From Spisula solida (Eukaryota; Mollusca; Bivalvia; Venerida; Mactridae): a stretch of 64,000 nt of DNA. Of the stretch, positions 574 through 33,722 are shown piece after piece. Within the stretch, counting starts at the first letter, position 1; the number at the start of each line of letters is the position of its first letter. The position numbers and the translations under genes were made by a program. The stretch is taken from positions 3,610,530 through 3,674,529 of the forward strand of contig OX365947.1 of the NCBI GenBank assembly GCA_947247005.1, in the 5' to 3' direction. The notes under the pieces are model-generated. The model saw only the letters and a program-made list of their open reading frames with translations. It ran no database searches and was not told where the DNA came from.

Positions 574-844
574 TTACACAAATCTTCGCAAAAATCCTAT
601 TATTTTCAATGCTTTATCTTTTTTCTTTTCAGCTGTCCACACCGAGACAGCTTTGGCTTTGTTGCGTTCAGTTTTTGTTATTTTTGTGGCAAACAATGTC
701 AAATATTCAGGTTTGATATCTTGATAAGCCATAGTGGCATCAGATGTATTCTTATTGTGGTTAACTATCTCTTTGTTACTGCGGTACTGTTCACGTTGTT
801 TGTGGCGTTTACTGTTTTTCTTCTTCGACACACGATCTATAAAT
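574..844 (-). CDS. Modular gene, exon 37 (terminal, basic tail)
   Basis: Acceptor TTTCAG is followed by A-TTT-ATA-GAT, phase 2, and the frame runs to a TAA at 574-576. It encodes 90 residues plus the split Arg. The start is very basic (RVSKKKNSKRHKQR), the middle reads IKPEYLTLFATKI, and the end is Lys-rich (AEKKKDKALKIIGFLRRFV). The basic charge contrasts sharply with the acidic upstream exons and could be a nuclear or nucleic-acid-binding tail (inference). No family recognised. Confidence 0.8.
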
Positions 845-3800
845 CTGAAATGAAAAATGAACACTCAATATTTTGCTTTTATTTTAAAACGTTGTAATTA
901 TATATGTGGCATAAGGTCAGCATGAGCTTTCATGAAATAAATATGACATAAACATATAAACAGTGTAAAGTTCACTCTTTTTATTACGTTTTAATAGTGG
1001 TTTTAAACAGTGCTTTTAAAATATTTTTTTATAAATTCAAAAACATTGAATAAGAGGGTTTTAGCCATCTGCAATTGAGTAACTGACCAGACGCCAGTGT
1101 CTAAGAGAACGTTCCGCCCGTTCGGTAGTAGATTTTTCCTGTCTGATGGTAACAAGCGAATCCATTGGATTGTGCAAAGATGTGTTATATATATTGTCAA
1201 TGTATTTACAACCGAAATCTTTACATTATTAGGCAACTGAATTCTATCTATTTACATGAAAGAACACCAGAAGTACCTTGATATATGGCTCTTTTTATGT
1301 CCATCATATGTTGGTGTAGACGGTTGGTCAACGGTTGTCTGATAAAACATGGACACCCCACATGCTTCATCAGCTTTGTCTATATATGACATTTGGTTAC
1401 TCAATGTTAGCGGTTCGTGAATTATTGTTTTCATCCCATTCTTGGTTGGTTTTATGTTCCTGGAAATACAAGTACACACTGGTAAGTAATAATAAAAATA
1501 CGGAACTATAAAACAATAAATGGGAAACCAAGAGACTATATGTTGTATAAGAGATCTGACATCGGAGTCCAGTAAAATTCATATCGCTAGGGACGCACAA
1601 ACTGACATCTCATTCATCCAATCTATTCAAACCTTTTATACAACATATAAAACAGACAAGACAATTGGACAACAGGTTTCACATAACACGCACGGACACT
1701 CATACTAATTGCCCTCCTCGGCAACTTCCGTCATTGCCCGTAACCCACGAACAATGACGAAGATCTCCGATTTGGTCAATCCGCAGACGACAGAACAAAA
1801 CGATAAGATACAGTAATTACAAGAAACGGCGCATGCGCGATAAAGATAACTACAATTTGCCGCATTAACCGAGCGGTCATACCGTGACATTTATGCACAA
1901 GCATGCTAAGACTGAAACTGATTATGATATGATTTGGCATAAGTGTAAGATGGGTAAGAACAAATGAACGGACATATAATTGGTTAAGATTCAAACGAAA
2001 ATGAAACACCAGTTATCATAACTTATGCTAACTTTAAGTCAATACCTGAAGCCCAACCACACAGGCAGTTGTGTGACCAATTGTAAGAACTAATAAGTGT
2101 ATAACTTCTATTTCTTTCATCAACAAACGAATGTAACAAATATTTTATGTATGGTTCGAGTAACAGACATAGCACTCGTGATGAGTAAATTTCATCAGTG
2201 AATCAACCAATCGTGAAAGCTCGGCCATATATTGCAATTCATAAAGGTCGAGATTATCAGAATGCTAACAAACTTTATAAAAGTAAATAATGTCAGAATA
2301 CAAACACATACCTTGATAAAGAAGTTTGATTTGACTTTGAAATTACATCAGAAGTTGTAGAATCTTCGGTTATAGGTGATATTACTTGATGATTGACTTG
2401 CACGACTTCGAGCATCTGTTCTGATTTGTTCAAACATTTCTCTGACTTTGGCGTCCTTTTTTGGCTCTGCCATTTTCGTTTCGTGCATTTTCGTTTCTCA
2501 CTAGTTGGAGGCTGTGTATGACTAGAAAAAAATATTATTATTAACACATTTTGTCTCTCCACGACAACAACACTAGTTTTGTAGATGTTGCAATATTTGT
2601 TCAGAGAAAGAAAGAAAGTCACACGTCTTAATACTTATATTAATCTGTACTAGAATAAGTACTAGGACATGTGTATATTGTTTATACTATACACGTACGC
2701 TTGCAGGAATAAATTGCAATCAAATGGCACAGACATTTAGCACTTTATATGTTAATATTATTTAATATTTTGATGATATGATGTGAAAGTCACTTCATCA
2801 TCTACGTCAGGAAGAACTTTGTTTTGAAAATATTAAGCGAAACATATACTCGACGAACTTGTAGCATAACAATAGAACAGCCATATTACGCAAGATAGAA
2901 CGTTTCGTTCGCTCACTCACCATTATTAAAAGCATTTGTGAAAATGTAGAACTGTATAACAAAACACTACTATCACATTTGTACCTAGGAATGACTGTCT
3001 GGTTCTCTCCTGGATTGTTTTCAGTGTTGCATATAGTTGGTGCTGACAATGACTTCCGAATTATTTCATCTCCAATGTTATGTTTGTATTCTGTCGTTCC
3101 TCTGAGCTTTTTGCCAGGTTGCCATTTTCTTTTTCTGTCATGGTTCTTGGTGACTTTACATACAGCTCGACTAGAAAATTATATCATATGCAAATATGTT
3201 TATATTCTAACATGCTGGCGCTAGTAAGTAATTGGATAGATAGCAATTAAGTATAAGGACATCAGCAATTAATAATGGTACATGTATAATACTTCGAAAA
3301 AAGGTTAGTACATTGTAGAGATTCCTACTACTAGTATGAGATAAATATATGACATAACGTTTTAAATTCCGTGTCTTAAATAGCACTCGGAAAGTCCTAC
3401 ATTGTTCAAAGCGATGACAACCCATATTCAACATAATAACGTCAACGATGACTATTTAGGCTTACAATGAATACTATGTGAATGTTATTTAATACTAGAT
3501 TTTACATGTAGTAGATTAAGTAATTATCGTGAAGTAATACCTTGTTTCATTAAATATGCTATCAGTTGACCTATGTCCTTCGTGCCCATTCTTCGTCTTG
3601 GAAGATGAGCAGTCTAGCAGATTCATGATGGAACTTGGTGCCTTGTGTATATGTTGAGATGGTACACATATAGTAATATCAGATTCCTTCAGAGTTGAGT
3701 GCTCTTCGGCAAAGACGTCATAAGATGAAACACATGGAGCTACTTCAAGTATTTTCGGTATGTTATGTTGATATTTGGGCAGCTTGTTGACAAGGTCTTC

Positions 3801-6800
3801 AGCAATGGTTTTCATGGGTACATCGTCCTTACTGGTACTCAATGCGTCTGCTTTGTAGGTAGATGTATGAAAGGTTGTGTCGTGTAAATTGTCCAAAGAC
3901 GCTTCAGCTGATATTATCTTATTTGTAGGAGCCTGTGTGACATCGAGCAACTTTTGAGATACTGATGGGAGTTTTTCCTGTGGTATCACAATAGCAGACG
4001 AATCTAGGTGCTTAACTAAGTTGTCTTTGCCTATGATATCCTTACATGAAATAGATAAGTCAATATCAAGTGGTTTTGATTGTGTAATTGAAGGCTGCTG
4101 TGATACACGTTCTGACGAAACCACTGACTCGTTGTTTACGACTTGTTGCTCGTTGGTAGATAAAGCCAATGATATTGTAGAATTCTCGATATTCAGTTTG
4201 ATTGAAAGCTTGGTGGTAGGTTGTTGTACAGGCATATTCTGAGATGTATTTGATTCATTAATATCAGGCATGCTCGTATCTTTGGTTTCAGATTTTCCAA
4301 CAGACAAATCAGGCGATTCGCAATGCAGATAATCTGGAATTACAGGAGTATGATCCGACTCAACGAGTGGTACTCCTGTATCGACTGTATTTACCGGAGA
4401 TATAGAATAAGGCTCACAATAGTCTGTACGTACATCTGCAGGTTTTGTGAATGCTGCATTTGGTTGTGCAGTTACTGTTTCGACTTTCAACGGCACGGAG
4501 GATTCCAGCACTGGCTTATTACGACATTTCATCTCTTTGGAAACTACAACTTGTCTGTCCCCTGCAGCAGTCTGTGACATGAGCAAAGCGTGATCTTTTC
4601 TGTAAATGAGTAATGAATTACTAGTACATTGTATATGTTGCATTAGGAGAGTTAGAACATTTCTGTAAACGAGCAATACATTCTAGTACATTACATAACC
4701 ACAATTGATGAAATAATGCATTATACCACGTTCGCAAACTGAAATAATCAGTGAATTTATACGAACATGGCCATGTGGAAACATTCATGAACTGATTGTA
4801 ATTATGAAATGACCGTAAATAGTTATAAGGCCTGTCGAAATAATTAAGTTATAGTTAGAACATATTAAGTAAATTTTAATGATTAAAAAGGTCGGAGCGA
4901 GCGAAGCGAGGCCTTTTTAGTCATTAAAATTTACTTAAAATGTTCTAACTAACTTAGAATATAACATTCTGCATTCTGATTGGCCGATAGAAATTAGCGC
5001 CAACGTATGACGTCAAGACTGTGAAGAGAAAATTTTAATGATTAAATTTTCATTTAACCGCGAAAATGCGACGTTTTCATTGGCTCATAATGTAGGTTAT
5101 ATTCTAAGTATACATATAATTTAATAATCTCCATAATTAGGTCAAAATACAATACCTGATATGTTCACTAACAACAACAGCTTCATCCCACGGCAAGCTT
5201 TCCATGCTGTCATCGTCACCCAAACAAGCATTTTCCAGCAGAGCACCATCCATTGACTGACAACTTATACTGACATCGTCACTCGTACTTGCAACATTAT
5301 TATCGTAGTAGATAACAACATATTCTTTTGCGAACCTGACTTCCTTCTTCTTAACTTCATTTCCATTCCTAATTGAAATATATCATTGATATCTTAACAA
5401 ATCTAATTTAACAAAAATAGATCAAATATGTTACATTGTGGTTTCAAAGACTATATTAACACAAAGAGAAACAAGACTGCGTTCAATAAACGCTTATGCC
5501 CCCTGTGGAAGCCTTGTCCATAAATAAGTCTAAGTCCAAAATTAGGTCAAGGTGAAGGTCAAAATGGGGTTAGGTGATACTGGCGTGTGGAGAGTGTTCA
5601 TACACAACATCCATGCAAGTATGAAAGCTTTGTAGCAAGCTATATTAATGCTAGAAGAAACGGTCAATTTGGGTTAACCAGGACGGACGGACGAACGGAC
5701 GAACGACGGACGAACGGACGGACAGGTGAATCACTATATGCCTCCCCATCTATCGATAGGGGGGCATAAAAATGAAATACCGTAAATCAGTCAGCTGTTC
5801 AGTAATATACTAATATAATTATACGTAATGCTCGCACATACGAGCAAGGGTGTGTGATTTTAAACCTCTATGATATTTGCAGATTACCAAAATTATATGA
5901 CGTCGGAAATGTGTTTGTGGCAACATTAAAATAATGTTTGAAAAGGTTACTTTTGCTCAAGTTCCGTGTGATGCTGTAATATAAGTATATATATAAGGAA
6001 CTGAATCTCAGACTGTGCTTCATAAACATGGTATATCTGTCCACAACTCAAACATGCAAGTTCGATTGAATAAATATTTTGTTGAAGTGTCAAAATGTAT
6101 TATGTTGAATATATGAACGTTTATAAAATATTATCATTACCTGCACAAATGTATACATTCTAGGCTGTCAACAGATCCGATCAGAGCATTGTCTTCCTCA
6201 GTAAGAGACGAGACATCGTTTGTGTCCTGAAGTGTGTTTGATCGCTCATCAGATGTTGACGGAATGATGCCCTTTGCTTGCTGAGGTGTGCTCAGAACCG
6301 TCATCTGGGTAGACACATCTTTTGTTTGCTGAGGTGTGCTTGGAACCATCATCTGGGTAGACACATCCTTTGTTAGCTGTGGTGTGCTTTGAACCATCAT
6401 CTGGGCAGACGCATCCTTTGTTGGCTGTTGTGTGTCTGGAAACATCGTCTGGGTAGACATATCCTTTGTGTGCTGAGGTGTGCTTGAAAGCATCATCTGG
6501 GTAGACACATCCTTAGGTTGCTGAGGTTTGCGTGTAACAATCATTTGAGTAGACACATCCTTTGTTTGCTGTGGTGTGCTTGTAACAATCATCTGGGTAG
6601 AAACATCATTTGTTTGCTGAGGTGTGAGTCGAACCAGCATCTGGGTAGACGCATCCTTTGTTCGTTGAGGTGTGCTTTGAACCATCATCTGGGTAGACGC
6701 ATCCTTTGTTTGCAGTGGTGTGCTTGGAACCATAATCTGGGTAGACACATCCTGTGTTTGCTGAGGTAAACATGGAGCCATCACCTTGGTTGATATATCC

Positions 6801-9800
6801 TTTATTTGCAGATGTGTACATGGAACCAGCATCATGGATGACATACCATTTTCTTGCTGAAGAGTACATGGCACCATCATCAGGGTAGGCATATCCTGTA
6901 CTCCCTGTGCCTTGGTCCCTTCGAAATGTGTTCTGAAAAATAGAGTTTATTCGCCTATGGAAAGTGATAACATTGAATGCAAAAATTAAAATAAACACGA
7001 ACACGTTGAGTTTGACATTGTCTTTCCGATTATAGTTCTTAGTGTGAATGCGCTGTGCATAATCAATACATTTTGCATATCTATAATCATTAATATAAAG
7101 TTACCACTGCCGTTCAATATTTACAATCAATTTACTTTTTATGAATTTGGTGAAATATATACCTGTGAAGTTTAGTGACAGTATCACTATTGGCGTCACT
7201 ATTATCTAGAAGCAAGTTGTCAATATCATCTTCAACTGAACAACTGATCTTCTTCCTAACAATTATATCAGCATCGTTTATTTTACCATTGTCGTCATCA
7301 AATTGCAATTCTTCGTCTTCCATTGCATAGACAGTCTTCTGTCTAAAATGAAAGAAGTACATTTATAACACTCACATATATAGACAATGAGATTCGGAAA
7401 TTATTTATAAACAATTATCGCACAGAACAAAGAAAGGCACTCTTTCGCACAATGAACGTAAACCAATGAATCAGGTTTAACCAAAACTCGATTTCGCTAA
7501 AATAGCTGTATGCAAAAAGATTATATAAAGTCAGACAGGGAAGGCAGCACTCAACTTAACAAGCCGAGCACAGAAACATTAAACGCACACAAAGCACAAT
7601 GCCCAACAACTGAACCAACCGAGCACAGGAAACATAAAACAAATGCAAGGCTACAATGCCCAACTAAACAAGCAAAGATCCGACCAAGTCAAAGCTGTCA
7701 AAAGTTTAATAAATTATAACTAGCTGAATTACCCAGTTTCCACAGCAAAACGACTATAATGCCCAGTTTTAGCTGTCAGAAACCCTAAAACGAAGAAGTG
7801 CCCAACACACTGCCAACCAAGAAAATTAATCAGCCCTTGTCCCAACTATTAAAAAGCTGAAAAGAAAAGTTTCAGCAAACAAGAGGCGGAATGTCTACGC
7901 TGAACGACCTAGTTACAATACCTGTATAGTTCGTTCCTATCATCGTCATCAGTGTCATCATATGGTAGGCTTTCAATATCGTCATCATCGGTCATACAAC
8001 CTTCATTATAATACTTATCATCGTTGCTGTGGATGCAATAAAAGTTAATTATAGCCTGTAATCTTGAATGTTATAGTGATATAAAATAAACATATACAAG
8101 TTAAAGTAAAACAATATAACAGAAAACAAGGAGACTTAAAGAAAACATCATTCAGTAATGGATATTAACATCATAGTTGAATTTAATTTACAGAACAAAA
8201 TGTAAAAAAATGCCTAAGGAAATGGTTTTCTTTTTGTCTTCATAACATTGTTTGAGTATCGCTAAAATTCTTGCCAAACTAACACACTAATATAACTGCT
8301 GTTATATTGAGATTTGTACATCATATGGTCGTTTAGACCAAAACATGGGTTGAGCGAGAAGATTCTTTTATTTTACCTGTATTCTCCTTGAGTATCATCA
8401 AAAGGCAAGCTATCAATGCTGTCATCATCGGTCATACAATCATACTCATAAACTGCCTCATCATTAGACACACTTTCTACATCGTCTTCGTTATCTGATG
8501 CAACATTCTCGTCATTGGTGGCAGGAATTTTGTCCGCAGATCTAGCAAAATCGTATGTTTATTTATTAATTATAAATTATTAAAAGACATGACACTAAAG
8601 GATAATAATTAAGCTAACAATGACCAAATGGATACGGATTAGTTACATGTGCACGTTATATTTCCAAGAAATATACATGGAAACATTTTAGCTAATTGCT
8701 ATATGATATCTACGTTACTAACTTGATTCAGCAATTAAACTGATAAAATGTTTACTGGTAAAAGTACAAACTACTAAAAGATACATTTGTACATTCTATG
8801 TGTTCAATTAATACATGTTTTCTGTAATGTATTCGTTCACACTATACAACAAAAGCACATATGGTAATCATAGGATAAACTTATCGCCACATGTGTTTCA
8901 ATTAGTCCAAACAAAATTTATATATTGTTCGTTCATTCAAAACAAACAAAAATAAATGTGTACAATAATTATAATCGTTAATATTAAATAAGTAACGAAC
9001 AACTTACCTAGTTGATTGATCACTTTCATCAGTAACATGAATTTCATCATAACTATTAGATTGACTAACTGGGTGAACACCCCAATCACTGATCGAGGAC
9101 GAATGGGTTCCATCGTCTTCATCTGCACAAGTATCATTTGCAGACGAAACAGACCTGACCAATAACAAATATAATATTTTGAATTATCGAAATATTCAGC
9201 CAATAAAAGATTTCCACAAAGTACAAAGTATACTGTGCTTCATATGTTATCAATTGAAATTGTGTTAGGAAGACATAAAACCTAATAACACGAACAATGA
9301 ATGCATTAATATCACATCTTATTCATCACATGTTACACTCATGTGGCGTGAAGTAATATCAGTAACGGGTGTCATACTACTCAAATGTATTTTTGAAAAA
9401 CCTATATGATTTATTTTATATCGCATCTTATTCATCATATACTGGTATGTAACACTGATGTAGTGTCAAGTAATGGCAGTTACGGATGTTATACTACTTA
9501 CTTCAGATATGGCAATGCCTTCTGTCATATTTTTGCAGTCTAACTATCAAATCACATTTGGCTACGGTACAGTGTATAAAACGTTGCATACTATGCCTAG
9601 ACTTGCTTTATTGACTTTTTCAGAATTATTTGCACCATGTATTTGACATTGGACACTTAAGTTAATCTTTGTACAAATGTCAATTACCTGGCTAATGAAA
9701 CATTATTGTCAACAAAATGTTCTTCATCTTCGAGTTTGGAGTGACTACTATAACATCTGTCATCATCCCAATCACTGTCCGACGATACATCAGTGTCATC

Positions 9801-12800
9801 CTCTGATGCTGTGAAACAAACCATCTTGGCAGAGGAAGAACTTCTGAAAAAGGTGATTATTGTGTTTCCATGTGATATAGGGTAATTGATATGACGCGCA
9901 TTGAAAGATAAAAATTTTACAAATAACATAACAACAGTAAATGTTACAAAGGAGTATGATAAATGTTACACAATTGAAATTGCCACATGTACTTACCCGA
10001 TTAACGTTTGTGAAGTTGAAGCACAACTTTCTCCGCTTGACCAACTACTTGTGTCTGATTGGTTGGTATTAGGTTGGGAACTTTCACTTTCATCTTTGTT
10101 AATGTCACTAAATTCAGATGTAACAGCCGGCGAAACATTTGTCAGGGATGTAGATCTGTAATTGTAATAAGAATAATATAAGTTTTATTGATTTTGACAA
10201 AATATTTGCTGTCTACAAAATGATTATTATCATATATCTAACAAAGATATGCAAAATGTAGCGATTTCGTCAACTAAACATGCATTAATATCACTTACCG
10301 GGATAATGTAAAGCTGTCATCAGTTGCATCCTCCTCATCCTCATGTTCGTAGTGACTACTAGTACATGGCTCATCACCCAAATCACTGTCAGTTGATATA
10401 TCAGTGTCATCGTCTGATGCGGAACAAACATTCTTTGCAGATGAAGAACTTCTGAAACATACAATGAGGTTTTGATAACCATTGAGTTGCGAGTAAAGAA
10501 CATTTCCTAAGAGCGCATTGGTAAATACAGTTTAAAGATAATTACCAATGAGAAACAATGGTGCAAATGAATCGTAAATGTTAAAACATACTTAGAATAA
10601 TTATATATAGTAGAAATAGCATCATGCACTCACAAGATCAACTTTTCTGAAGTAGATGCACTATGTTCTGGATCAGTCTTACAGTTGTAACCAATCTGGT
10701 TTTCGCTATGTTGTAAAATATCACTTATATCTTTTCTAGGATCAACTACCGCAGCCGTAGAAACATTCTTCAGAGATGTAGATCTATAAATGTGCATGTG
10801 TACGTATTATATATGTTATTTGTGGAATGGTGTGTTAATATATATTCTAACATCATGATTTGTTGTCTCAATAATGGATAAATATTACATCAAAAGAATG
10901 TAGACGTTCGACCTATTGTTTTCACACAGAGTTAAATGCCTACAATAAACAGAAGGACAAGTTGCGCAGTTCGAATTAATGTAAATGTAACATAATTTAT
11001 CAACTACATAGATAAAAACATTAAAAAACAATACAGATGTTTTATCAACTACATACGTATACGATTCAAACAAAACATACGATTCACTTAACAATTTGCA
11101 AGTATATTGAATGTAAATATGGAGAATTCAATAAATACATGTAAATATAAATAGCCAATACCTGGGTATAAAGTCTTCCATGTAATCAGCACCATGCATT
11201 TCACCTTCTCTATAGGAGTGACTCAATGTAACATCAATCCAATCACTGACCGAAGATATATCTGTGTCATCATTTGATGCGAAACTGGCGGAATTTGAAG
11301 ATGATGAAGGTCTGAAACACAGATCGACATTTGGATTGTCTATTGGTTCCATGTGCTGGACAAAAGGACAAATCCTAATACCGCATTGATTCATACAGTT
11401 TAATGAGTATTGTGAATAAGAATAAATGTTACATATGAAATGTTATTTAAGAGTTTGGAGAAATTAGCATAATAGGAACTGCTTCATGCACTAACCTGGT
11501 CAACTTGTCTGAAGTAGATGCATCATGTTCCAGGCTTGGCATACTACAATTATCTAGGAGTTGTTTTTTATGTTGTGCTTCATCACTTATTTGTTTGTTA
11601 AGGGCATTTGAAATACTATCGTCAGAAGGCGAAACTTTCTTTAGAGATGTAGATCTATAATTGTAAAAATGATAAATTGTCAAATTGATTATTTTATATA
11701 CTAGTAACATAATGATCATTCGTTTTTCATTGAATGGTTGATACGATATAAAACGATCGGTTTGAGTTTGAACGAAAATAAATACAGAGAAGTCGTGAAC
11801 TACATGCTTATATAAGAAAATCTATTACCTAGGTATAAAGTCTTCCATGTAGTCAGCACCATACATTTGATCTTCTCTATAAGAATGACTCAAAGTCACA
11901 TCAATAAAATCACTGACCGAAGATACATCAGTTTCATCATTTGATGTGAGACGAGCAGACTTTGCAGAGGAAGAACTCCTGAAAATTAAATGACTTTGTG
12001 TTATTGAATGTTTTCGACAAACACAGGGGCAACTTATTACCAATTGAAAACACATTTGAACATTAATAAAAAAAATCATTCAATAGTGCATAATTATACA
12101 CTGTACATCGAAAGTGTAAGAAAACGTTACGTCACTAGAACGGTACACTTTGCACTATAACAAACTGATAAATGTACTAACTTGATTAACTTTTCTGAAG
12201 TAGAGGCACCATGTTCTTGGCTTGACAAACTGTGGTCATCGATGTGGTTTACACAAGGTTCTAACTTCTCGTTTTTATCTTTGTCAAGGGTATTTGAATC
12301 ACCTGCGGCTGCCGGCGAAACAGTCTTCAGAGATCTATAGTTGGAATAAAAATGATTTCTGGTAAATGACATATATGTGTTCTATATATTATAACATCAT
12401 GAGTTACTGTTGCAACTTGGACATATATTGAGCTAAACATATACACGAAAAACTTAACAGTTGAGAGTACATGGTATGTAATAACGGAGAATTGACAAAC
12501 CTCGTACATGTATTCAAAAATATCAATTACCTTGGTACAAAGTCTTCCATGTAATCAGCACCATACATTTCACCTTCTCTATAAGAGTGACTCAAAGTCA
12601 CATCAATCAAATCACTGACCGAAGATACATCTGTGTCATCATTTGATGTGGAACGAGCATACTTTGCAGATGAAGAACTTCTGAAAGTGGAATGACTTTG
12701 TAGTATTGATTATTTTTAGCAAAAAAGGCAATTTCCTACGGCAAAAATGGCAATTTCCCACGGCAAAAAGGGCAGTTTCCTATCACCAAATAATGAATAC

Positions 12801-15800
12801 AATTTTGCAATGATAACAAATCGCAATATATATTGCATATACAATGTTCATCGAAACTGTAACAAAACATAACGTCACTAATACGGTAAACGTTGCACAA
12901 TAACAAACTGACAAATGTACTAACTTGATCAACTTTTCTGAAGTAGAGGCACCATGTTCTTGGATTGACAAACTGTGGTCATCGAAATGGTCTGCACAAG
13001 GTTCTAATTTCTCGCTTTTATCTTTGTCAGGGGCATTAGTATCACCTGCGGCTGCCGGCGAAACAATTTTCAATGATCTATAGTTGGAATAAAAATGATT
13101 TTGTTAAATGATATATATATATATATATGTATTTTTATATATTATAACATCATGACCTACTATTGTAACTTGGATATATATTAAGATAAACATATACAGG
13201 AAACACTTAACACTTAACAGTTGAAAATACAATGTATTTAATTACGGAGAATTGATCAAGCTCGTTAATATATATTCAAAAATACCAATTACCTGGGTAT
13301 GCAGTCTTCCATATAATCAGCACCGTACATTTCACCTTCTCTATAAGAGTGACTCAATGTAACATCAATCCAATCACTGACTGAAGACACATCCTTGTCA
13401 TCATTTGATGGGTGACAAGCTAACGTTGCAGATGAAGAACTCCTGAAAATGAAATAACATTTGGAATAAGAATTGTTTCCGAGTGATGGTGATGCACAAT
13501 AATACAGGCGTACTTCAAATAACGCATTGATGCACACGGTTTTAAACTTCTAGATAAGCGCGAATGCAAACATGTATTGTAATTGCAGAAAAGGGTATGG
13601 TAAACTTTGCACAATATATGAAGATACCTCTACAGATACTAACCTTGTAAACTTTTCTGAAGTAGATGCACCATGTTCTTTGCTTGACAAACTGCTGTTA
13701 TCGAGATGGTTTGCACAAGGCTGGGAATTTTCTATTCTCTCTTTGTCAAAAGCATCAGTATCACCTGCAGCTGCCGGCGACATATTCTGCCGAGGTGAAT
13801 GTCTACAATTGTAATATGAATAGTTTTTGTTAAGTGCTATGTTTCATATATTCTAACACCATGTACCTACTGTTTCAACTTGGATATACATTGCTAATGA
13901 ATATTGAAATTAACAAACGACACGCTTAAAAGTTAGAAAGTATGTAAATTGAGAGAACTCATCAAGAACATATACATGTAAATATAATATCCATTACCTA
14001 GGTATAAAGTCTTCCATGTAATCAGCACCATACATTTCACCTTCTCTATAGGAGTGACTCAATGTAACATCAATCCAATCACTGACCGAAGATATATCAG
14101 TGTCATCATTTGATGCGGAGCGAGCAGACTTTGCAGATGAATAACTCCTGAAAAATGGAATATTATTAGGACTATACAATGTTTCCAAATGATTGCACGA
14201 TACCAAAATGTCATTTTTGTAAACACATATTGATACGTATGGTTTAAAATTAGTCCAAATCAGAACCAAAAGGGCTATGAGTTGTAAATATCATTACAGA
14301 ATATTGTGAATCTTTACAGCATTCAAAATATTGCGAAATTGTCAATTGTTATATTATAAAAAGTAATTACCTAGATGACGTTGTATTGTCCTCAGCAACA
14401 TGTACTTCATCCTGTCGCTTAGAGTTACTGCTAATGCTAGTATATGTGTCATCTACTCGCTTTGAATAACTGCTAGTGCTAGTATATGTGTCATCATCCC
14501 GCTTGGAGTAACTGCTAGTGCTAGTATATGTGTCATCATCCCGCTTGGAGTAACTGCTAGTGCTGGTATGTGTGTCATTATCAAAATCACTGTCGGTTGA
14601 TACATCAGTAGCATAGTCTGATGTTGAACATTGATCCTTTCCAGATACAAAACTTCTGAAACATACAGTGATATTTCGATATTTCCGTTGTGAATCAGAC
14701 AACAAAAAACATGGAACGCAATGATACAGATGTAAGAGTATAACGAATGAGAAGCAACAAAACAGCGTTATTGAAGTGTCGACTACGAAAGCTCGTATGC
14801 TAAACATTGCACTACAAAAAAAGATCCATGTGCTAACCTGTTAAACTTGTCTGAAGAGAAGGTACTAGGTTCTTGACTTGACAAACTCAGACTTTCTTGT
14901 TGGCGTGCACAAAGTCGTGAATTCTCACTTGTATCTTTACCAGGAGCAATAGAATCACATGCGGCTGCCGGCGAAACATTCTTCAGAGATATAGATCTAT
15001 AATTGTAATAAAAATGATTTGTGTTAAATGACATATTTTTAATATTAAAACATCGACGTATTATCTTTTGAAAGTATAACAAACATAGCATTCTTGAAAT
15101 GCATAGTCATATAAATATCCATTCATTGCTAATGAATATTGAAATTAACATACGACACGCTTAAAAGTTAGAAAGTATGTAAATTGAGAGAACTCATCAA
15201 GAACATATACATTTGTACATGTAAATATAATATCCATTACCTGGGTATAAAGTCTTCCATGTAATCAGCACCATACAGTTCACCTTCTCTATAAGAGTGA
15301 CTTAATGTAACATCAATCCAATCACTAACCGAAGATACACCCGTGTTGTCATTTGATGCGGGGCCAGCTGACTTTTCAGATGAAGTACTCCTGGAAAATA
15401 GAATAATATTTGAATTATCGATTGTTTTCGAGAGATACACGATACTAGTAATACAAATGGTAAATTCTAATGACGCATTGATATATACGTGTTGATTTAA
15501 ATTATTCCAAATGAGCGCTAATACTACATAAATACTGTAAAGGTTGCAAAATAGTATGATCAAATAGAAAACCTCTTCATGTACTAACTAACCTGGTCAA
15601 TTTTTCTGAAGTAGGTGTACTATGTTCTTGGATTGACAAACTATGATCATCTAGGCGGTTTATACAATGCTGGGAATATTCCCTTTCTTCTATGTCAGGG
15701 GCATTAGAATCACCTGTGGCAGCCGGTGAACCTTTCTTCAGAGATGTAGATCTGTAATTGTAATGTGAACGACCATTGTTTAATGTTGTGTTTTACATAA

Positions 15801-18800
15801 TCTAATACCGTCATCGAGTGTCTCACAATGGACCTTAAACATTTAACAAACAAGGACTTGGGCATTTTGGACACAAGTAATTACGAAAAATGCATCAAAT
15901 ATATATACAAATATAAATATCAATTACCTGGGTATAAAGTCTTCCATGTAATCAGCATCATACATTTCACCTTCTCTATAAGAATGACTCAATGTGACAT
16001 CAATCCAATCACTGACCGAAGATATATCTGTTACATCCTTTGATGTGGGACACGCTACTTTGACAGATGAAGAACTCCTGAAAAATTAAGTAACATTTGG
16101 ATTATCGACTGTTTTTGAGTGATTCATGTTGATAAAATGGCAAAATTTAAGAATCCATTGATACATACGGATTTTAAATTATTCCAATTGAGAACCAAAG
16201 GGCATATGAACTTTTAATATCACCACAGAATATGGTGAACTTAAGTATGCAAAATATTAAGAATTTGTCAATTGTATGCTATTATAAATAACAATTACTT
16301 GGCTGATGTTGCATTGCTTTCAGCAGCATGCACTTCGTCCACACGCTTGGAGTAACTGCTAGAGCTAGTATGTGTGTAACTTCTAGTGCTGGTATATGTG
16401 TCATTATTCGAGTCACAGTCTGTTGATACATCAGTGTCATCGTCCGATGCCGAACAACCATTGTTTGCAAGTGAAGAACTTCTGTAAAATAAAGTAAAGT
16501 TAGGGGATGTTCGGTGTTATTTAGAAAAGGAAAACGAGCGAGAACGCAATGCTACATGAAGTTTAACAATTATTATTAACGAGAATCGAAAACATATCTT
16601 TATCGGAAATGTCTATGAAAGCGTACGTAGAGCTTTGCAAGAAAGCTAACGTTTCAAATGAGAATCAATATCAAACACTTGTACTACTTGAAATTTCTGC
16701 AAAACTGAATGGGAAACTAAGAAAAATACATGTAGTAACGGTTACATGCGCTTACCTGGTCAACTTGTTTGAAGTAGATGTACTAGGTTCTTGACTTGAC
16801 AAACTCCGACTTTCTTGTTGGCGTGCACAAAGTCGTGAATTCTCACTTTCATCTTTGTCAGGAGCATTAGAATCACCAGCGGCCGCCAGCGAAACATTCT
16901 TCAGAGATATAGATCTATAATTGTAAAAAAATGCATGTGTTTAATGGCGTGTTCATATAAATGTATATTCTAACATCATGACCTATGATCATTTTGAACG
17001 TATGTAAAGACAGTCATATCATAAAATGCATAGAAATATCAATATGCATTACCTGGGTATAAAGTCTTCCATGTAATCAGTACCATACATTTCACCTTCT
17101 CTGTAAGAGTGACTCAATGTTGCATCAACCCAATCACTGATCCAAGATACGCTAGTTTCATTGTCTGGTAGGGGACAGGATACCTTTGCAGATGTCGAAC
17201 GACTGAAAAATTGCGTTACATTTGGGTTATCTATTGTTTCCGAATGATGCACGACAATACAAGGGACATTCTAATGACACAATGATTATTACTGTTTTAA
17301 AATTATTCAAAATGATAACCTATAAGTCATTATTGTAAATGTGACAAACAGGATGTGACCTAGCATAAGAGAAACCATTTTATTCACTAACCTGATCAAT
17401 TTTTCTGAAGTAGATACATCATGTTCTTGTCTTGGCAAACTGTGGTCATCTTGGAGGTTTGTATTATCATCAACAGCATGTTCTTCATCCTCTTGATATG
17501 TGTGACTGATATAATCTTCGCGATCATCCCAGTCAATGATTGAAGGTGCGTCGTTGTCAGTGTCATTGTCTGATGTGGGATCTACATACTTTCTAGATAT
17601 GGGACTTCTGAAAAATAGAGACATACCTCGCTTTTTCGATAATATCGGAATGACACAGGAAACAAAGATGAACAATTGCAATGATATATACAGTGTACAT
17701 GTTAAACATTATTAACAATGTTATCAGTAATGACAACGTATCTTTAAAAATGGTACAAGCTCGTGTGGCAATCTGCTAAACAGACTAACTTGAATAACTT
17801 GTATGGATTAGTCTCATTGTTTTAAATAATGTTACAAAATGATCTAATTCCATATATGGAGATTCAGTAAACTAATCACTTGAAGAATATTATGAAGGTA
17901 CCGGCATGTACTATCATAGAGAATTCGTTAACTACAATGTATCTATATTAAGACAATTACCTGACTAATGTAGCATTCTCTTTATCAGAGTGACTAAGTG
18001 TGTCGTCGTCCCAATCACTGTCGTATGATACATCAGTTTCATTACCAGATTCCTGTGAATCTTTGTTTGCAGGCGAAGCAGATCTAGATAATGGAAAACA
18101 ATGGCGTTCGACTATAGTTAGTTACCAAATGGTTAAACCGATGGGAACATTCAAAATTGTTTCTTGTTTTGAAGATTAATTTCATGAACTTAGAAAACAT
18201 ATCTCCCATGCTGTAATGTCGTTTAATGTTAACTTTAATTGTTTAAAACTACCTCTACAGATTAGAAATAATATCATCCTTTGTACGTTTGGAAACTGAC
18301 CATCCTGGTGGGTTAGTCTAAATATTCGGTTGAATAAAGTATTGGGTTTGTAATTACATTAATTAGATTTAGGCTGAATAATGTGCAAAATAGTAAAATA
18401 TGACTTGGGAACTTTATCTATTAATTGGGATGTTCTTTAGGAGATTTTAATCTTCAATATAAGCAAGCAATTACCTGCTATGTTGGTCGGAAGGCGTTAC
18501 GCCAAGTCGGCAATTGGATGATCGGGCATTGTCCAAATGATTTGCAGATGCTATGAAATCTCTCTTTTGGTCCTTGTTCTTGGGAACATCGGAGGTAGAC
18601 AGTAAAGTACTCTTAGACGGAGCAGATCTGTTGTTTGAAATGATATTCAAGTATTATACAATCTTCTATAATAGTAGAATTAAATTTAATAAACTAATCA
18701 GTTTCCAACATTTTCATGAATACAATGGTTCAATTGTTCAACTAAATGTTTCTGAAATACATGTAACGTACAGGTATTTGTACTATGTAACTTAATCGAA

Positions 18801-19785
18801 TATAAATCGTTAATAAATTGTATTTTTTCAAATAGGGAAAAACAGGAATAAATCTGAAAAAATAACATGAATTTCTAACTGTATGCTGGTACCTGCAAAT
18901 ATCTTCAACAATGTCATCCTGTGACAAACTCTGGAGGTTTGTACCACCTGGGTTATCATCACTGACATCATGCTGAGACTCACTATTAGTACCGGAATTG
19001 GTGTTGAGAGTGTCGTCTTGTGACAAACTCTGGAGGCTTCTACCACCTGTGTCATCATGGTGAGACTCACTCTCGGTGCTGGACTTGATACAGAAGTCGT
19101 CGTCCATGGAGGAACCACATGTTGGTTGCAATTTGTAGTGTGGACCACGTCTGTAAATCCAATAATTACTAGATATATTAATACAGTGTATAGTGCATGT
19201 ACATTTATATTACCCATACTTAAGCCTGTTGATAGACGTATGTGGGGGACCAATGAATAAAGCAGTTCTTAACTTTATTGGCAGTTTACCTCATGTAAGC
19301 TACCGCTAAGTAAAGGTGTTATCGAGACATTTAACAAACCAAATGTTCGGCCAAACAATGAACGAACACATTTAAAATTATTAAGTATCCTTATTAACAT
19401 AACATTGCTTCAATTACAGTGTTAGACAAAGTTGTGGTTTATAATATCGCCCATTTTGTTTTTTTTACCTGTAAAGTATATCGATATCTCTTTGTAGACT
19501 ATCAGTACGACTCGCTGCATCCTTGTCACTGTCACTGTTCTCACTGATGCTCTCCAAGTAGTCGATGGCTGCCTGTATGCTATCCAAGTTGGCAATGGCT
19601 GCCTGGGCGGGAGTGACGCGGGTGATGGCTGACTGTGCTGGTATGACGCTGGTGGTGGCTGTATCCAAGCAGGCGATGGTTGCCTGGTTTGGATCCTCCT
19701 CGGCTAATTCCTCCTCCTTCTGGGTTCCTGGGACAGCCACAGGTTGTCTCTTCTTGAAGACAACATTGCCTTCAAATGCTCCGTG
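574..19785 (-). CDS. Large modular gene of at least 37 exons (whole span), product unrecognised
   Basis: I assembled this by hand from acceptor and donor sites on the minus strand. Exons are numbered 1 (19469-19785) to 37 (574-844). Exons 2-36 all start with one base completing a split codon and end with two bases of the next, so all are phase 2-2. Summed coding length is 7,965 nt, about 2,654 residues plus stop. The product is rich in Ser, Asp, Glu and Thr, has many acidic Ser/Thr kinase-type sites, has almost no hydrophobic stretches, and ends in a Lys/Arg-rich tail. A and B modules alternate through the 5' half; longer unique exons fill the 3' half. No known domain is recognised. I infer a largely disordered scaffold-type protein. 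The first exon was not found, so signal peptide and location are unknown. Treacle/Nolc1-like acidic-repeat proteins and acidic matrix proteins share general features, but homology to neither is shown. Confidence 0.82.
1277..1459 (-). CDS. Modular gene, exon 36
   Basis: 183 nt, phase 2-2. Acceptor TATTTCCAG, donor CAAG|GTACTTC. It encodes a 61-residue segment beginning NIKPTKNGMKTIIHEP and ending GHKKSHIS before the split codon. Unique sequence, no recognised motif. The 432-bp intron after it leads to the terminal exon. Confidence 0.72.
2312..2521 (-). CDS. Modular gene, exon 35 (Lys-rich)
   Basis: 210 nt, phase 2-2. Acceptor TTTTTCTAG, donor CAAG|GTATGTG, a strong match. It encodes a basic segment with KRKCTKRKWQSQKRTPKSEK followed by a polar tail. 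The KRK..KRKWQ pattern recurs in exon 34, so these two exons may be related. The basic cluster could be a nuclear localisation signal (inference). Confidence 0.77.
2985..3170 (-). CDS. Modular gene, exon 34
   Basis: 186 nt, phase 2-2. Acceptor TTTTCTAG, donor CCTAG|GTACAAATG. It encodes a basic first half (KNHDRKRKWQPGKKLRG) and a polar second half ending NPGENQTVIP. It shares an RKRKWQ-like core with exon 35. No known domain. Confidence 0.75.
3541..4599 (-). CDS. Modular gene, exon 33 (longest exon)
   Basis: 1,059 nt, 353 codons, open throughout. Acceptor TTTACAG, donor ACAAG|GTATTAC, phase 2-2. The product is low-complexity and polar, rich in Ser, Thr, Val, Asp and Pro, for example KVETVTAQPN, SIKLNIENSTISLAL and ISVQKLLD-like stretches. 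No transmembrane segment or folded domain recognised. A 353-codon frame in AT-rich DNA, with splice sites fitting on both sides, is strong evidence of coding. Confidence 0.85.
4854..4950. repeat. Foldback element in an intron
   Basis: Arms of about 37 bp starting GTTAGAACAT and ending near TTAATGA are inverted around a loop of GGAGCGAGCGAAGCGAGG. It lies in the intron between exons 32 and 33 of the modular gene and looks like a small MITE. Confidence 0.75.
4952..5109. repeat. Second foldback element with a CRE palindrome
   Basis: ACTTAGAATATAAC at 4952-4965 is inverted at 5096-5109. The interior holds a TGACGTCA palindrome at 5008-5015 and a GATTGGCC CCAAT-type word. It lies directly next to the preceding foldback, in the same intron. 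Confidence 0.6.
5156..5368 (-). CDS. Modular gene, exon 32 (RVxF-like motif)
   Basis: 213 nt, phase 2-2. Acceptor CAATTAG, donor ATCAG|GTATTG. It begins NGNEVKKKEVRFAKEYVV, then acidic sequence, then DDDSMESLPWDEAVV. K-E-V-R-F fits the RVxF protein phosphatase 1 docking pattern, preceded by lysines and followed by a hydrophobic/aromatic patch (VVIYYD), as in several PP1 regulators. Binding is inferred, not shown. The SLPWDE block recurs as SLPFDD and SLPYDD in exons 28 and 29. Confidence 0.8.
5507..5769. mobile_element. Non-autonomous element with ACGG-type microsatellite
   Basis: Ends are inverted: TTATGCCCCC near 5509 and GGGGGGCATAA at 5759-5769. Near the right end is a run of GGAC/GAAC tetramers (5691-5723), followed by a TATCGATA palindrome. 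This resembles the non-autonomous, microsatellite-bearing elements common in bivalve genomes. It lies in the intron between exons 31 and 32 of the modular gene. Confidence 0.7.
6141..6932 (-). CDS. Modular gene, exon 31 (sixteen-residue tandem repeats)
   Basis: 792 nt, 264 codons, phase 2-2. Acceptor TTTTTCAG, donor TGCAG|GTAATG. The core is about twelve tandem copies of a 16-residue (48-bp) unit with consensus STPQQTKDVSTQMMVP. The first copies (CTLQQENGMSSMMLVP) are the most diverged. After the array comes an acidic end with IGSVDSLE, similar to the ESLP blocks of neighbouring exons. Thr/Ser/Gln-rich with regularly spaced Met-Met pairs. No family recognised. The array is in frame, so copy-number change would not break the protein. 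Confidence 0.85.
7163..7342 (-). CDS. Modular gene, exon 30 (acidic)
   Basis: 180 nt, phase 2-2. Acceptor CATTTTAG, donor CACAG|GTATAT. It encodes MEDEELQFDDDNGKINDAD, then IIVRKKISCSVEDDIDNLLL, and a Ser/Asp-rich end. It contains an internal ATG, but the frame is continuous from the acceptor. Highly acidic, unrecognised. Confidence 0.77.
7517..7920 (+). repeat. Dispersed repeat D, copy in an intron
   Basis: It begins AAAAGATTATAT and contains GGGAAGGCAGCACTCAACTT and CACAAAGCACAATGCCCAAC, shared with copies at 28.2, 33.5, 46.7, 56.0 and 57.4 kb. Its far end (GGCGGAATG..CGACCTAGTTACAA) runs to the 5' splice site of exon 29, so most of this intron is the element. Small open frames inside it are repeat shadows. 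Confidence 0.8.
7922..8026 (-). CDS. Modular gene, exon 29 (short acidic)
   Basis: 105 nt, phase 2-2. Acceptor CATCCACAG, donor TACAG|GTATTG. It encodes EGCMTDDDDIESLPYDDTDD and a short tail. It is clearly a shortened relative of exon 28 (DCMTDDDSIDSLPFDDTQ) and shares the SLP-aromatic-Asp core with exon 32. Its donor abuts repeat D. Confidence 0.78.
8377..8541 (-). CDS. Modular gene, exon 28 (acidic)
   Basis: 165 nt, phase 2-2. Acceptor TTTGCTAG, donor TACAG|GTAAAA. It encodes an Asp/Glu/Asn-rich segment ending YDCMTDDDSIDSLPFDDTQ. The second half is homologous to exon 29 and to the end of exon 32, indicating exon duplication. Confidence 0.79.
9008..9154 (-). CDS. Modular gene, exon 27 (B-like)
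   Basis: 147 nt, phase 2-2. Acceptor TTGGTCAG, donor ACTAG|GTAAGT, a near-perfect donor. It keeps the B-module outline: SVSSAND start, SSISDWGVHPVSQSNSYDE centre, acidic end (HVTDESDQST). It is more diverged than the 150-nt B exons upstream. The intron before it (9155-9687) holds two diverged tandem copies of about 115 bp. Confidence 0.78.
9688..9843 (-). CDS. Modular gene, exon 26 (B-like)
   Basis: 156 nt, phase 2-2. Acceptor CTTTTTCAG, donor CCAG|GTAATTG. It encodes SSSSAKMVCFTASEDDTDVS, then SDSDWDDDRCYSSHS and EDEEHFVDNNVSLA. It matches the B outline with a more acidic second half. K-M-V-C-F formally fits an RVxF pattern, but the position is not conserved in sister exons. Confidence 0.8.
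9997..10155 (-). CDS. Modular gene, exon 25 (A module)
   Basis: 159 nt, phase 2-2. Acceptor AATTACAG, donor TCGG|GTAAGT. It encodes STSLTNVSPAVTSEF at the start and SCASTSQTL at the end, the A-module frame with many internal changes. The split codon gives Gly rather than the usual Arg/Ser. Confidence 0.8.
10299..10451 (-). CDS. Modular gene, exon 24 (B-like)
   Basis: 153 nt, phase 2-2. Acceptor ATGTTTCAG, donor CCCG|GTAAGTG. It encodes SSSSAKNVCSASDDDTDIST, DSDLGDEPCTSSHYEHEDEE and an acidic end. The first half matches the B module; the second lacks the DYMEDFIP ending. Confidence 0.8.
10634..10783 (-). CDS. Modular gene, exon 23 (A module, diverged)
   Basis: 150 nt, phase 2-2. Acceptor TTTATAG, donor ATCTT|GTGAGTG, an AG-less exon end with a good intronic donor. 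It starts STSLKNVSTAAVVD and ends EHSASTSEKLI. The joining codon would be TT plus A (Leu). Confidence 0.76.
11162..11311 (-). CDS. Modular gene, exon 22 (B module)
   Basis: 150 nt, phase 2-2. Acceptor GTGTTTCAG, donor CCCAG|GTATTG. It contains SNSASFASNDDTDISS, SDWIDVTLSHSYREGEMHGA and DYMEDFIP. First of the highly conserved B exons when reading from the 3' side. Confidence 0.85.
11496..11654 (-). CDS. Modular gene, exon 21 (A module)
   Basis: 159 nt, phase 2-2. Acceptor ATTATAG, donor CCAG|GTTAGTG. It encodes STSLKKVSPSDDSISNA at the start and EHDASTSDKLT at the end. The PAAAGD core is replaced by PSDDS. Confidence 0.84.
11829..11978 (-). CDS. Modular gene, exon 20 (B module)
   Basis: 150 nt, phase 2-2. 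Acceptor ATTTTCAG, donor CCTAG|GTAATAG. SDFIDVTLSHSYREDQMYGA replaces the usual DWIDV...GEMYGA, followed by the conserved DYMEDFIP. The split codon starts with G (AG|G). Confidence 0.86.
12182..12334 (-). CDS. Modular gene, exon 19 (A module, short form)
   Basis: 153 nt, phase 2-2. Acceptor ACTATAG, donor TTAA|GTTAGTA, so the joining codon is AAG (Lys). It starts SLKTVSPAAAGDSNTLD and ends EHGASTSEKLI. Nearly identical to exon 17, including the short N-terminus, which suggests recent duplication or conversion. Confidence 0.86.
12531..12680 (-). CDS. Modular gene, exon 18 (B module)
   Basis: 150 nt, phase 2-2. Acceptor CACTTTCAG, donor CCAAG|GTAATTG. It encodes SSSSAKYARSTSNDDTDVSS, SDLIDVTLSHSYREGEMYGA and DYMEDFVP. 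DLIDV replaces DWIDV. Confidence 0.86.
12719..12785. repeat. Three-copy 22-bp intronic repeat
   Basis: Three tandem copies of CGGCAAAAATGGCAATTTCC-like sequence lie in the intron between exons 17 and 18. No functional reading offered. Confidence 0.6.
12925..13077 (-). CDS. Modular gene, exon 17 (A module, short form)
   Basis: 153 nt, phase 2-2. Acceptor ACTATAG, donor TCAA|GTTAGTA. It starts SLKIVSPAAAGDTNAPDKDK and ends QEHGASTSEKLI. It lacks the two residues (Thr-Ser) present in the 159-nt A exons. Closest relative is exon 19. Confidence 0.86.
13293..13442 (-). CDS. Modular gene, exon 16 (B module)
   Basis: 150 nt, phase 2-2. Acceptor CATTTTCAG, donor CCCAG|GTAATTG. It encodes SSSSATLACHPSNDDKDVSS, SDWIDVTLSHSYREGEMYGA and DYMEDCIP. 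Second B of the second five-exon block. Confidence 0.87.
13644..13802 (-). CDS. Modular gene, exon 15 (A module)
   Basis: 159 nt, phase 2-2. Acceptor AATTGTAG, donor CAAG|GTTAGTA. It starts HSPRQNMSPAAAGDTDAFDK and ends KEHGASTSEKFT. The usual STSLKKV start is replaced by HSPRQNM. Confidence 0.85.
13998..14147 (-). CDS. Modular gene, exon 14 (B module)
   Basis: 150 nt, phase 2-2. Acceptor CATTTTTCAG, donor CCTAG|GTAATGG. It contains SAKSARSASNDDTDISS, SDWIDVTLSHSYREGEMYGA and DYMEDFIP. Close to the B consensus. The start of the intron after it is nearly identical to the start of the intron after exon 11. Confidence 0.88.
14371..14655 (-). CDS. Modular gene, exon 13 (C type, 13-residue repeats)
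   Basis: 285 nt, phase 2-2. Acceptor ATGTTTCAG, donor CTAG|GTAATTA. A B-like start (DYATDVSTDSDFDNDTH) runs into four tandem copies of a 13-residue (39-bp) unit, DDTYTSTSSYSKR, then DEVHVAEDNTTS. The repeats are nearly identical at the DNA level. Exon 8 has the same layout with fewer copies. Confidence 0.86.
14838..14996 (-). CDS. Modular gene, exon 12 (A module, CARQQES subtype)
   Basis: 159 nt, phase 2-2. Acceptor AATTATAG, donor ACAG|GTTAGCA. It encodes SISLKNVSPAAACD, SRLCARQQESLSLSSQEPST and a KFN end. It shares the CARQQES subtype only with exon 7, and like exon 7 it directly precedes a C-type exon. Confidence 0.86.
15241..15390 (-). CDS. Modular gene, exon 11 (B module)
   Basis: 150 nt, phase 2-2. 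Acceptor TTTTCCAG, donor CCCAG|GTAATGG. It encodes STSSEKSAGPASNDNTGVSS, SDWIDVTLSHSYREGELYGA and DYMEDFIP. Last exon of the first five-exon block. Confidence 0.87.
15593..15751 (-). CDS. Modular gene, exon 10 (A module)
   Basis: 159 nt, phase 2-2. Acceptor CAATTACAG, donor CCAG|GTTAGTT. It starts STSLKKGSPAATGDSNAPD and ends QEHSTPTSEKLT. A diverged but clear A module. Confidence 0.85.
15928..16077 (-). CDS. Modular gene, exon 9 (B module)
   Basis: 150 nt, phase 2-2. Acceptor TTTTTCAG, donor CCCAG|GTAATTG. It starts SSSSVKVACPTSKDVTDISS, then SDWIDVTLSHSYREGEMYDA and DYMEDFIP. Confidence 0.87.
16299..16481 (-). CDS. Modular gene, exon 8 (C type, contracted repeats)
   Basis: 183 nt, phase 2-2. 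Acceptor ATTTTACAG, donor CCAA|GTAATTG. It encodes SSSLANNGCSASDDDTDVST, then about two partial copies of the TYTSTSSYSKR repeat, then DEVHAAESNATSA. It has the same layout as exon 13, with a shorter array. Confidence 0.84.
16756..16914 (-). CDS. Modular gene, exon 7 (A module, CARQQES subtype)
   Basis: 159 nt, phase 2-2. Acceptor AATTATAG, donor CCAG|GTAAGCG. It encodes SISLKNVSLAAAGDSNAPDK, SRLCARQQESRSLSSQEPST and a NKLT end. Sister of exon 12. Confidence 0.86.
17053..17202 (-). CDS. Modular gene, exon 6 (B module)
   Basis: 150 nt, phase 2-2. Acceptor ATTTTTCAG, donor CCCAG|GTAATGC. It encodes RSTSAKVSCPLPDNETSVSW, SDWVDATLSHSYREGEMYGT and DYMEDFIP. The most 5' full B module and one of the more diverged. 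Confidence 0.86.
17392..17607 (-). CDS. Modular gene, exon 5 (B/A hybrid)
   Basis: 216 nt, phase 2-2. Acceptor ATTTTTCAG, donor TCAG|GTTAGTG. It begins as a B-type exon (SDNDTDNDAPSIIDWDDRED) and after an acidic bridge continues as the second half of an A module (LQDDHSLPRQEHDVSTSEKL). This is one exon made from two modules, presumably by recombination or loss of an intron. Confidence 0.84.
17961..18083 (-). CDS. Modular gene, exon 4 (short B-like)
   Basis: 123 nt, phase 2-2. Acceptor TTATCTAG, donor TCAG|GTAATTG. It encodes SASPANKDSQESGNETDVSY, DSDWDDDTLSHSDKENATLV. It keeps the DxDWxDxTLSHS core of the B module and lacks the DYMEDFIP end. Confidence 0.8.
18475..18627 (-). CDS. Modular gene, exon 3 (A-like)
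   Basis: 153 nt, phase 2-2. Acceptor AACAACAG, donor AGCAG|GTAATTG. It encodes SAPSKSTLLSTSDVPKNKDQ, ASANHLDNARSSNCRLG and a VTPSDQHS end. Similarity to the A module is weak (ANHLDN) and the assignment rests mostly on phase and length. Confidence 0.7.
18893..19150 (-). CDS. Modular gene, exon 2
   Basis: 258 nt, phase 2-2. Acceptor GATTTACAG, donor TGCAG|GTACC. It encodes GPHYKLQPTCGSSMDDDF, then two copies of an SESxHD...LQSLSQDD unit of about 30-35 residues. Ser/Asp/Gln-rich. No family recognised. Confidence 0.8.
19469..19785 (-). CDS. Modular gene, exon 1 found (5' partial)
   Basis: 317 nt. The donor TACAG|GTAAAA is phase 2, while the best acceptor (TATTAAAG) gives a phase 0 start, so the upstream exon with the ATG is missing. 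It encodes GAFEGNVVFKKRQPVAVPG, an acidic stretch (KEEELAEEDPN), an Ala/Thr/Ile-rich middle with imperfect repeats of AIxxLDxxQAAI type, and SENSDSDKDAASRTDSLQRD. The weak acceptor makes the 5' boundary uncertain. Confidence 0.65.
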
Positions 19786-33544: not shown

Positions 33545-33722
33545 ATTAAATTTTGACAGCTGGGTGTTGGGCGTTCGACGAACTTGGCCTTTCAGTGGTT
33601 AAGTTAATTTCATAGTTTAGTTGTGTGTTGGGCATTGTGTCGAGTAATTGTGGTATGTTATGTTTTAGGCTGTTTAAGTTGAGTGCTGCCTTCCCTGTCC
33701 GACTTTCTATTATCGCTTTGCA
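33545..33722 (-). repeat. Repeat D, diverged minus-strand copy
   Basis: Contains GTTAAGTT..GTGCTGCCTTCCCTGTC and GGGCATTGTG words, the inverse of repeat D at 28.2 kb. Confidence 0.7.

Follow-up and report, generated by a model that had tools for sequence, protein, structure and literature searches.

The DNA analysed here, a stretch of 64,000 nucleotides to which we refer as the window, carries on its minus strand a coding gene of at least 37 exons, modelled from 19727 down to 574, and upstream of it a GBX (gastrulation brain homeobox) gene. The GBX gene, also on the minus strand, is marked by a homeodomain exon at 34790-35347 (Pfam, 1.8e-24). A further minus-strand stretch at 41407-41949, which gave no Pfam match, resembles the GBX N-terminal exon and is presumably that exon. 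GBX could serve as a syntenic anchor for locating the array gene in relatives.

The exon array and its reading frame

The list of 37 exons was made by hand from the sequence, with two script scans seen beforehand, and was then checked by script. From exon 2 to exon 36 (19150-1277), every exon spans a multiple of three nucleotides and is in phase 2 on either side (35/35), opening with the third base of one codon and closing with the first and second bases of another. Runs of consecutive exons with equal phase at both ends are a feature of symmetric exon-duplication array genes, and here the run takes in all 35. The earlier note had described 35 consecutive symmetric phase 2-2 exons, any of which could be removed in frame; the script check bore this out exon by exon, and both the count and the stop at 574 were right. 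Internal exons measure 211 nt on average, with a median of 159 nt. The introns, which had been described as regular, of 140-550 bp and up to about 850, range from 138 to 852 nt with a median of 237 nt; all 36 are GT-AG, and their lengths modulo three (14, 11 and 11) display no clear preference.

Joined, exons 1-37 form a single frame of 2634 codons whose only stop is the terminal one, in keeping with the earlier proposal of one gene. The predicted frame is open in each of exons 2-36, and the two alternative frames are open in 0 and 4 of these 35; in the joined sequence, the alternatives contain 110 and 323 stops. At the present base composition, 2634 codons without a stop would arise with a chance of about 10^-83, which, together with the closed alternative frames, rules out chance open frames. 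A gene-finding script that allowed any phase, and whose training set included ten array exons as well as the long exon 33, predicted 31 exons. Of these, 23 are identical to exons of the hand-made list, and all 23 are phase 2-2; seven depart from it at one end and hence have different phases, and exons 3, 8, 17, 19, 30 and 34 were missed.

The ends of the gene are defined to different degrees. Exon 1, one of the 31 exons returned by the script, is modelled at 19469-19727 with its start, which is uncertain, taken from that output. No ATG occurs in its frame as far back as the preceding stop (ORF 19465-19806), and more than one acceptor could be used for it, with candidates at 19785, 19752, 19749, 19727, 19719 and further. 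Since an in-frame ATG is absent and several acceptors are possible, at least one upstream exon is missing from the model and the 5' end lies further upstream; the earlier view of exon 1 as a complete first exon is corrected accordingly. Scanning 34500-19760 for first exons gave low-scoring candidates only, with scores that carry no chance control. Among the best were a short form at 26803-26761 (score 1.6, on the same uncontrolled scale) and a minus-strand candidate at 26761-26845 with a hydrophobic start (MAPAGAILVIALFT; score -1.2, likewise uncontrolled), whose phase-1 donor is compatible with the exon 1 acceptor at 19727. At the other end, exon 37 (844-574) is the final coding exon, entered in phase 2 and ending in TAA. 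A polyadenylation-like AATAAA at 569-576 overlaps this stop codon (TAAATAAA).

Exon families and block duplications

Exons were sorted into families by all-against-all comparison, and 190 pairs drawn from 20 exons were tested by shuffling. The repeated A and B modules named in the earlier note were recovered in this comparison. Module A comprises nine exons. Six have 159 nt, namely exons 7 (16756-16914), 10 (15593-15751), 12 (14838-14996), 15 (13644-13802), 21 (11496-11654) and 25 (9997-10155); exons 17 (12925-13077) and 19 (12182-12334) are a short form of 153 nt, and exon 23 (10634-10783) has 150 nt. Module B comprises eight exons, all of 150 nt: 6 (17053-17202), 9 (15928-16077), 11 (15241-15390), 14 (13998-14147), 16 (13293-13442), 18 (12531-12680), 20 (11829-11978) and 22 (11162-11311). 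Related to B is module B', found in exons 4 (17961-18083, 123 nt), 8 (16299-16481, 183 nt), 13 (14371-14655, 285 nt), 24 (10299-10451, 153 nt), 26 (9688-9843, 156 nt) and, in a divergent form, 27 (9008-9154, 147 nt). Exon 5 (17392-17607, 216 nt) is a fusion, its front resembling B' and its back A, and together with modules A, B and B' it accounts for 24 of the 35 array exons. A third motif, of the DDDSIDSLPFDD type, is common to exons 28 (8377-8541, 165 nt), 29 (7922-8026, 105 nt) and 32 (5156-5368, 213 nt).

Eight exons have no convincing relative. These are exon 2 (18893-19150, 258 nt), which matches exon 13 weakly, in low-complexity sequence (E 7e-4), exon 3 (18475-18627, 153 nt), the acidic exon 30 (7163-7342, 180 nt), exon 31 (6141-6932, 792 nt), exon 33 (3541-4599, 1059 nt) and exons 34 (2985-3170, 186 nt), 35 (2312-2521, 210 nt) and 36 (1277-1459, 183 nt). 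Outside the known families, only the pair of exons 30 and 34 had a score that none of 200 shuffles reached; the pairs 31-32, 33-10 and 3-31 were each reached by 2 of 200 shuffles. With 190 pairs tested, all of these matches are weak. Within the window, exon copies were confined to the gene itself: all 195 tblastn matches at E 0.01 fall inside it, on the minus strand.

The introns preserve a record of how the modules multiplied. Introns 5-10 match introns 10-15 at an offset of five, with local scores of 55, 47, 31, 88, 27 and 41, compared with a maximum of 21 in 300 shuffles, and therefore the block B-A-B'-B-A, opened by exon 6 and closed by exon 10, was duplicated as exons 11-15. At an offset of two, introns 16 and 18 (score 114) and introns 17 and 19 (score 72) match, from which it follows that the B-A pair of exons 16-17 was copied as exons 18-19. 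Overall, 18 of the 36 introns match another intron above a score of 25, and none of introns 1-4, 20 and 24-36 does. Mutual homology of exons and their flanking introns is accordingly found over much of the array (24 of 35 exons in A, B and B', counting the fusion, three with the third motif, and 18 of 36 introns) and is absent for eight exons and 18 introns.

One pair of introns stands apart. Introns 11 and 14 are identical at 110 of 112 aligned bases, and a tract at 13886-13977 in intron 14 is 98% identical to its partner at 15121-15212 in intron 11, possibly through recent conversion or duplication. In the B exons adjoining this tract, 11 and 14, about 22% of synonymous sites have diverged. 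Near-identical introns beside diverged exons would fit local gene conversion or later copying. Growth is also visible inside exons, where exon 13 carries, besides its B' module, four in-frame 42-nt (14-aa) repeats and exon 31 is enlarged by about 13 in-frame 48-nt (16-aa) tandem repeats.

These observations agree with the earlier suggestion of an exon array able to grow by duplication, the block duplications being visible in exons and introns alike. We propose that the phase-2 array grew by unequal exchange between its introns, two or five exons at a time, that at least one conversion-like patch may have contributed, and that in-frame minisatellite expansion would have added length within exons.

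The encoded protein and known exon arrays

Selection acts unevenly along the modules. Across the eight B exons, columns 19-49 gave a pN of 0.049 and a pS of 0.267, a pN/pS of 0.18 (bootstrap 0.09-0.37). In columns 1-18, pN/pS was 0.80 (bootstrap 0.47-1.44), so that suppression is not clear there, and the A exons were near neutral at 0.84 (0.64-1.09). Ratios of this kind among repeat copies may be distorted by gene conversion; even so, the contrast between the two halves of B, lying within the same exon, would be hard to obtain without selection on the protein. The substitution pattern indicates purifying selection on the second half of module B and a functioning coding gene. A pseudogene is ruled out by the frame kept in all exons, the absence of internal stops and the purifying selection on the second half of B.

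The predicted protein changes in character along its length. Segments from exons 2-30 are acidic (pI 4.1-4.6), exons 34-36 are jointly basic (pI 9.7) and exon 37 more so (pI 10.5). By the charge-hydropathy test, with junction residues entered as R, eight of ten segments are disordered, the exceptions being exons 31 and 33. A structural model of module B from eight copies was of low confidence (pLDDT 60.5, pTM 0.12). Exon 37, folded from its single sequence, gave two long helices (pLDDT 75.7, pTM 0.28), to which we attach low weight. CK2-type sites are not enriched (116, compared with a mean of 112 in the shuffled protein), and the number of basic NLS-like patterns (3 versus 1.4) lacks significance, 18% of shuffles reaching 3. 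Since both counts lie near those of shuffled protein, phosphorylation and nuclear import find no support beyond composition. Exon 32 contains the stretch KKEVRFAKEYVVIYY, which we take to resemble an RVxF phosphatase-docking motif followed by a phi-phi element.

Searches for relatives returned no known family, in line with the earlier note, which had recognised none. Pfam scans jointly covering all 37 exons gave nothing above the curated cut-offs; DacZ_A on the exon 31 region (E 2e-4) and weak matches to PAH_ZNF598, DUF5411, Ezh2-like CXC, Sarcoglycan_2, Wbp11 and AllH all fell below them and were set aside. Against a collection of 5.8 billion proteins, the whole protein had no relative at E 0.001 among 7967 scored candidates, and exons 32-37 had none at E 10 among 5933. 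Candidates in this search were chosen by 100 short shared five-residue words within a length range, and for the whole protein only the 7967 top word-sharers were scored, a procedure by which diverged relatives could be missed. In the PDB, exon 32 had four matches up to E 10, all to beta-propeller proteins (best E 0.021, no single stretch passing), and the best match of a module B profile was at E 5.6.

As a control, the GBX homeobox exon (34793-35347) was run against the same protein collection, and 6959 of 7042 candidates gave a match. In the list of 120 matches, unnamed proteins dominate near the top, and the first to carry a name come from Mytilus, Sinanodonta, Haliotis, Mizuhopecten and Pecten. 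Mollusc proteins are therefore present in the collection, and a bivalve is the probable source of the DNA; a conserved homeobox is no proof that the search would pick up a fast-evolving relative. The array gene is young, fast-evolving or unannotated elsewhere. A gene of this kind, without detectable sequence relatives, can be recognised through its structure.

Genes with many exons of similar size sharing one phase are described as a rare type in most genomes (PMC9168663). The same report describes aphid bicycle genes, in which almost all internal exons are phase 2, and megacycle, a very large gene of more than 100 microexons whose repeated protein units arose by internal tandem duplication and which is without obvious CYC motifs (PMC9168663). 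Our gene resembles these in its phase-2 internal exons (35 of 35) and in its growth by internal duplication. It differs in phylum, and in exon size, bicycle exons being described as unusually small and microexons being absent here. The classifier for bicycle genes given in that report (PMC9168663) yielded a linear predictor of -128 for the array gene, with its first exon incomplete, and a probability near 0 against a cut-off of 0.72.

A second parallel comes from Tetrahymena, where LRR genes are described as arrays of 90-bp exons, more than 96% of them separated by phase-2 introns, and are ascribed to clonal expansion via duplication and unequal crossing over (PMC6564038). Tandem exons and an extreme phase-2 bias are common to both systems. 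The Tetrahymena exons are, on the same account, exactly 90 bp long and encode LRRs in thousands of ciliate genes, whereas here a single animal gene is concerned, 0 of its 37 exons measure 90 nt and Pfam detected no LRR.

Within the array protein, no match was found to C-x(8-16)-YC, which we take as a loose form of the CYC pattern of bicycle proteins. Titin PEVK and nebulin also have successive symmetric exons that arose by duplication and encode a repetitive, extended protein. The arrays of collagen and titin belong to other phase classes, and the array gene differs from both in that Pfam detected no collagen or titin domain in it. The likeness to collagen again lies in successive symmetric exons from exon duplication and a repetitive extended protein (PMC4838654). 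Dscam-type arrays are likewise described as tandemly duplicated exons in one gene (PMC1397879); their exons are spliced in a mutually exclusive manner, whereas here all exons join in one frame. Docking of the Dscam kind was considered and rejected: apart from A acceptors, the 25 longest of 83 inverted pairs showed no recurrent pairing element. In a literature search by titles and the beginnings of abstracts, neither the array gene nor any phase-2 exon array from a mollusc was found described. Phase-2 arrays are already known in ciliates and aphids, and here the same type of architecture is carried by an orphan protein.

Possible roles of the array and its uniform phase

We see about an even chance that the locus is a single functioning gene for a long (more than 2634 residues), acidic, Ser/Asp-rich and largely disordered multivalent scaffold with a basic C-terminal part, grown by exon-block duplication. 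If most exons are normally included, each protein would carry eight copies of a conserved linear motif, the second half of B (SDWIDVTLSHSYREGEMYGADYMEDFIP), and the loosely constrained spacers A and B' would separate these motifs on a disordered chain. The repetition and the selection on B suggest a multivalent binding scaffold whose valency would shift with exon number. Repetition, selection pattern and composition are direct observations on the gene; binding, the scaffold role and constitutive inclusion would follow from them.

Regulated skipping of, or choice among, the 35 interchangeable exons could instead provide a splicing repertoire of very many isoforms. All 35 can be skipped in frame, and the near-neutral A modules would tolerate optional use. 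In 24-27 of the 35 exons, however, symmetry is an automatic by-product of copying a symmetric exon and therefore does not speak for exon choice. All 36 introns are GT-AG and, with a median of 237 nt, short; short introns, together with the joining of all exons in one frame, are no less compatible with constitutive splicing. The 25 longest of the 83 inverted-repeat pairs include no element that pairs with many introns. On balance, we regard such a repertoire as possible and lean against it.

The only recurring inverted pairs among these 25 lie around A-exon acceptors. A palindrome, TATAGATCTATA, contains the acceptors of A exons 12 and 7 (14990-15001 and 16908-16919) and occurs only these two times in the window. 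With the palindrome at both acceptors, its copies could pair in RNA.

The acidity of the exon 2-30 segments would also suit a secreted matrix protein, as might occur in shell or byssus, in which acidic serine/aspartate modules bind mineral or ions, and the named relatives of the neighbouring GBX exon make a mollusc source probable. Against this reading, which we consider unlikely, no signal peptide can be placed while the 5' end is missing and the best candidate first exons score low on a scale without chance control (1.6 and -1.2); moreover, exons 34-37 are basic and the conserved half of B is not simply acidic. We find it quite improbable that the protein is a nuclear or cytosolic phosphatase-targeting scaffold, with PP1 docked via exon 32 and the acidic repeats serving as phosphorylated tails. 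The basic C terminus and the one RVxF-phi-phi match in the protein, KKEVRFAKEYVVIYY, would suit it, but at least one such match occurs in 10% of shuffles and three RVxF matches in 5%, CK2-type sites show no enrichment, and the PDB matches of exon 32 are all to beta-propeller proteins.

The uniformity of phase calls for its own explanation. In related exons, phase 2 follows from the duplication of a phase-2 exon. For the remainder, we considered the sites at which introns might have been gained. AG|R sites inside exons would give phase 1 in 139 cases, phase 0 in 111 and phase 2 in 28 (n = 278), and introns gained there would therefore not be uniformly phase 2; for AG followed by any base, phase 2 would result at 174 of 548 sites. 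Taking nine introns as independent, our own estimate that underlies both figures, the odds of phase 2 in all nine are about 10^-9 for AG|R or 3x10^-5 for AG with any base. The uniform phase in exons without detectable similarity suggests common descent or insertion under the same phase-2 rule: the outer exons are either array descendants diverged past recognition or new exons accepted only in phase 2.

We speculate, with considerable doubt, that every internal exon, including the eight mutually dissimilar ones, derives from one ancestral phase-2 exon. The protein would then be a string of interchangeable exon cards, perhaps varying between individuals, with copy number, and possibly splicing, setting the number of B motifs per molecule. 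Independent gain of introns in a once-continuous repetitive coding sequence, its uniform phase stemming from local sequence bias, would account for junction codons AGA, AGG, AGT or AGC at 30 of 36 junctions, which resemble preferred insertion sites, but is highly improbable given that AG|R sites favour phases 1 and 0 over 2, and is contradicted for the 18 of 36 introns that are homologous to others and so were duplicated along with their exons.

With 35 exons, block duplications, and a constrained half-module beside a nearly free spacer, the array makes a clean test bed for exon-array growth. It also lends itself to asking if individuals differ in copy number and if frame-neutral exons serve as a splicing repertoire.

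Repeats of other kinds are scattered through the window. Two minisatellites, at 21407-21957 (period 59 bp) and 23314-25262 (period 62 bp), lie 1.6-5.5 kb upstream of exon 1; others are found at 31730-32773 (period 22/44/66 bp), 35546-35824 (21 bp), 44790-45786 (27 bp), 48070-49983 (19 bp) and 50074-50312 (42 bp). A dispersed repeat with 69-93% identity occupies intron 29 (7343-7921) and recurs at about 28231-28457, 33626-33722, 46654-46856, 55936-56053 and 57445-57604. A stretch of intron 31 at 5500-5770 contains short tandem repeats at 5681-5723 and a C-run sequence, which we take to be typical of a widespread bivalve repeat. Intron 32 contains a hairpin at 4852-4951, with 40-nt arms that are 95% complementary and a 20-nt loop.
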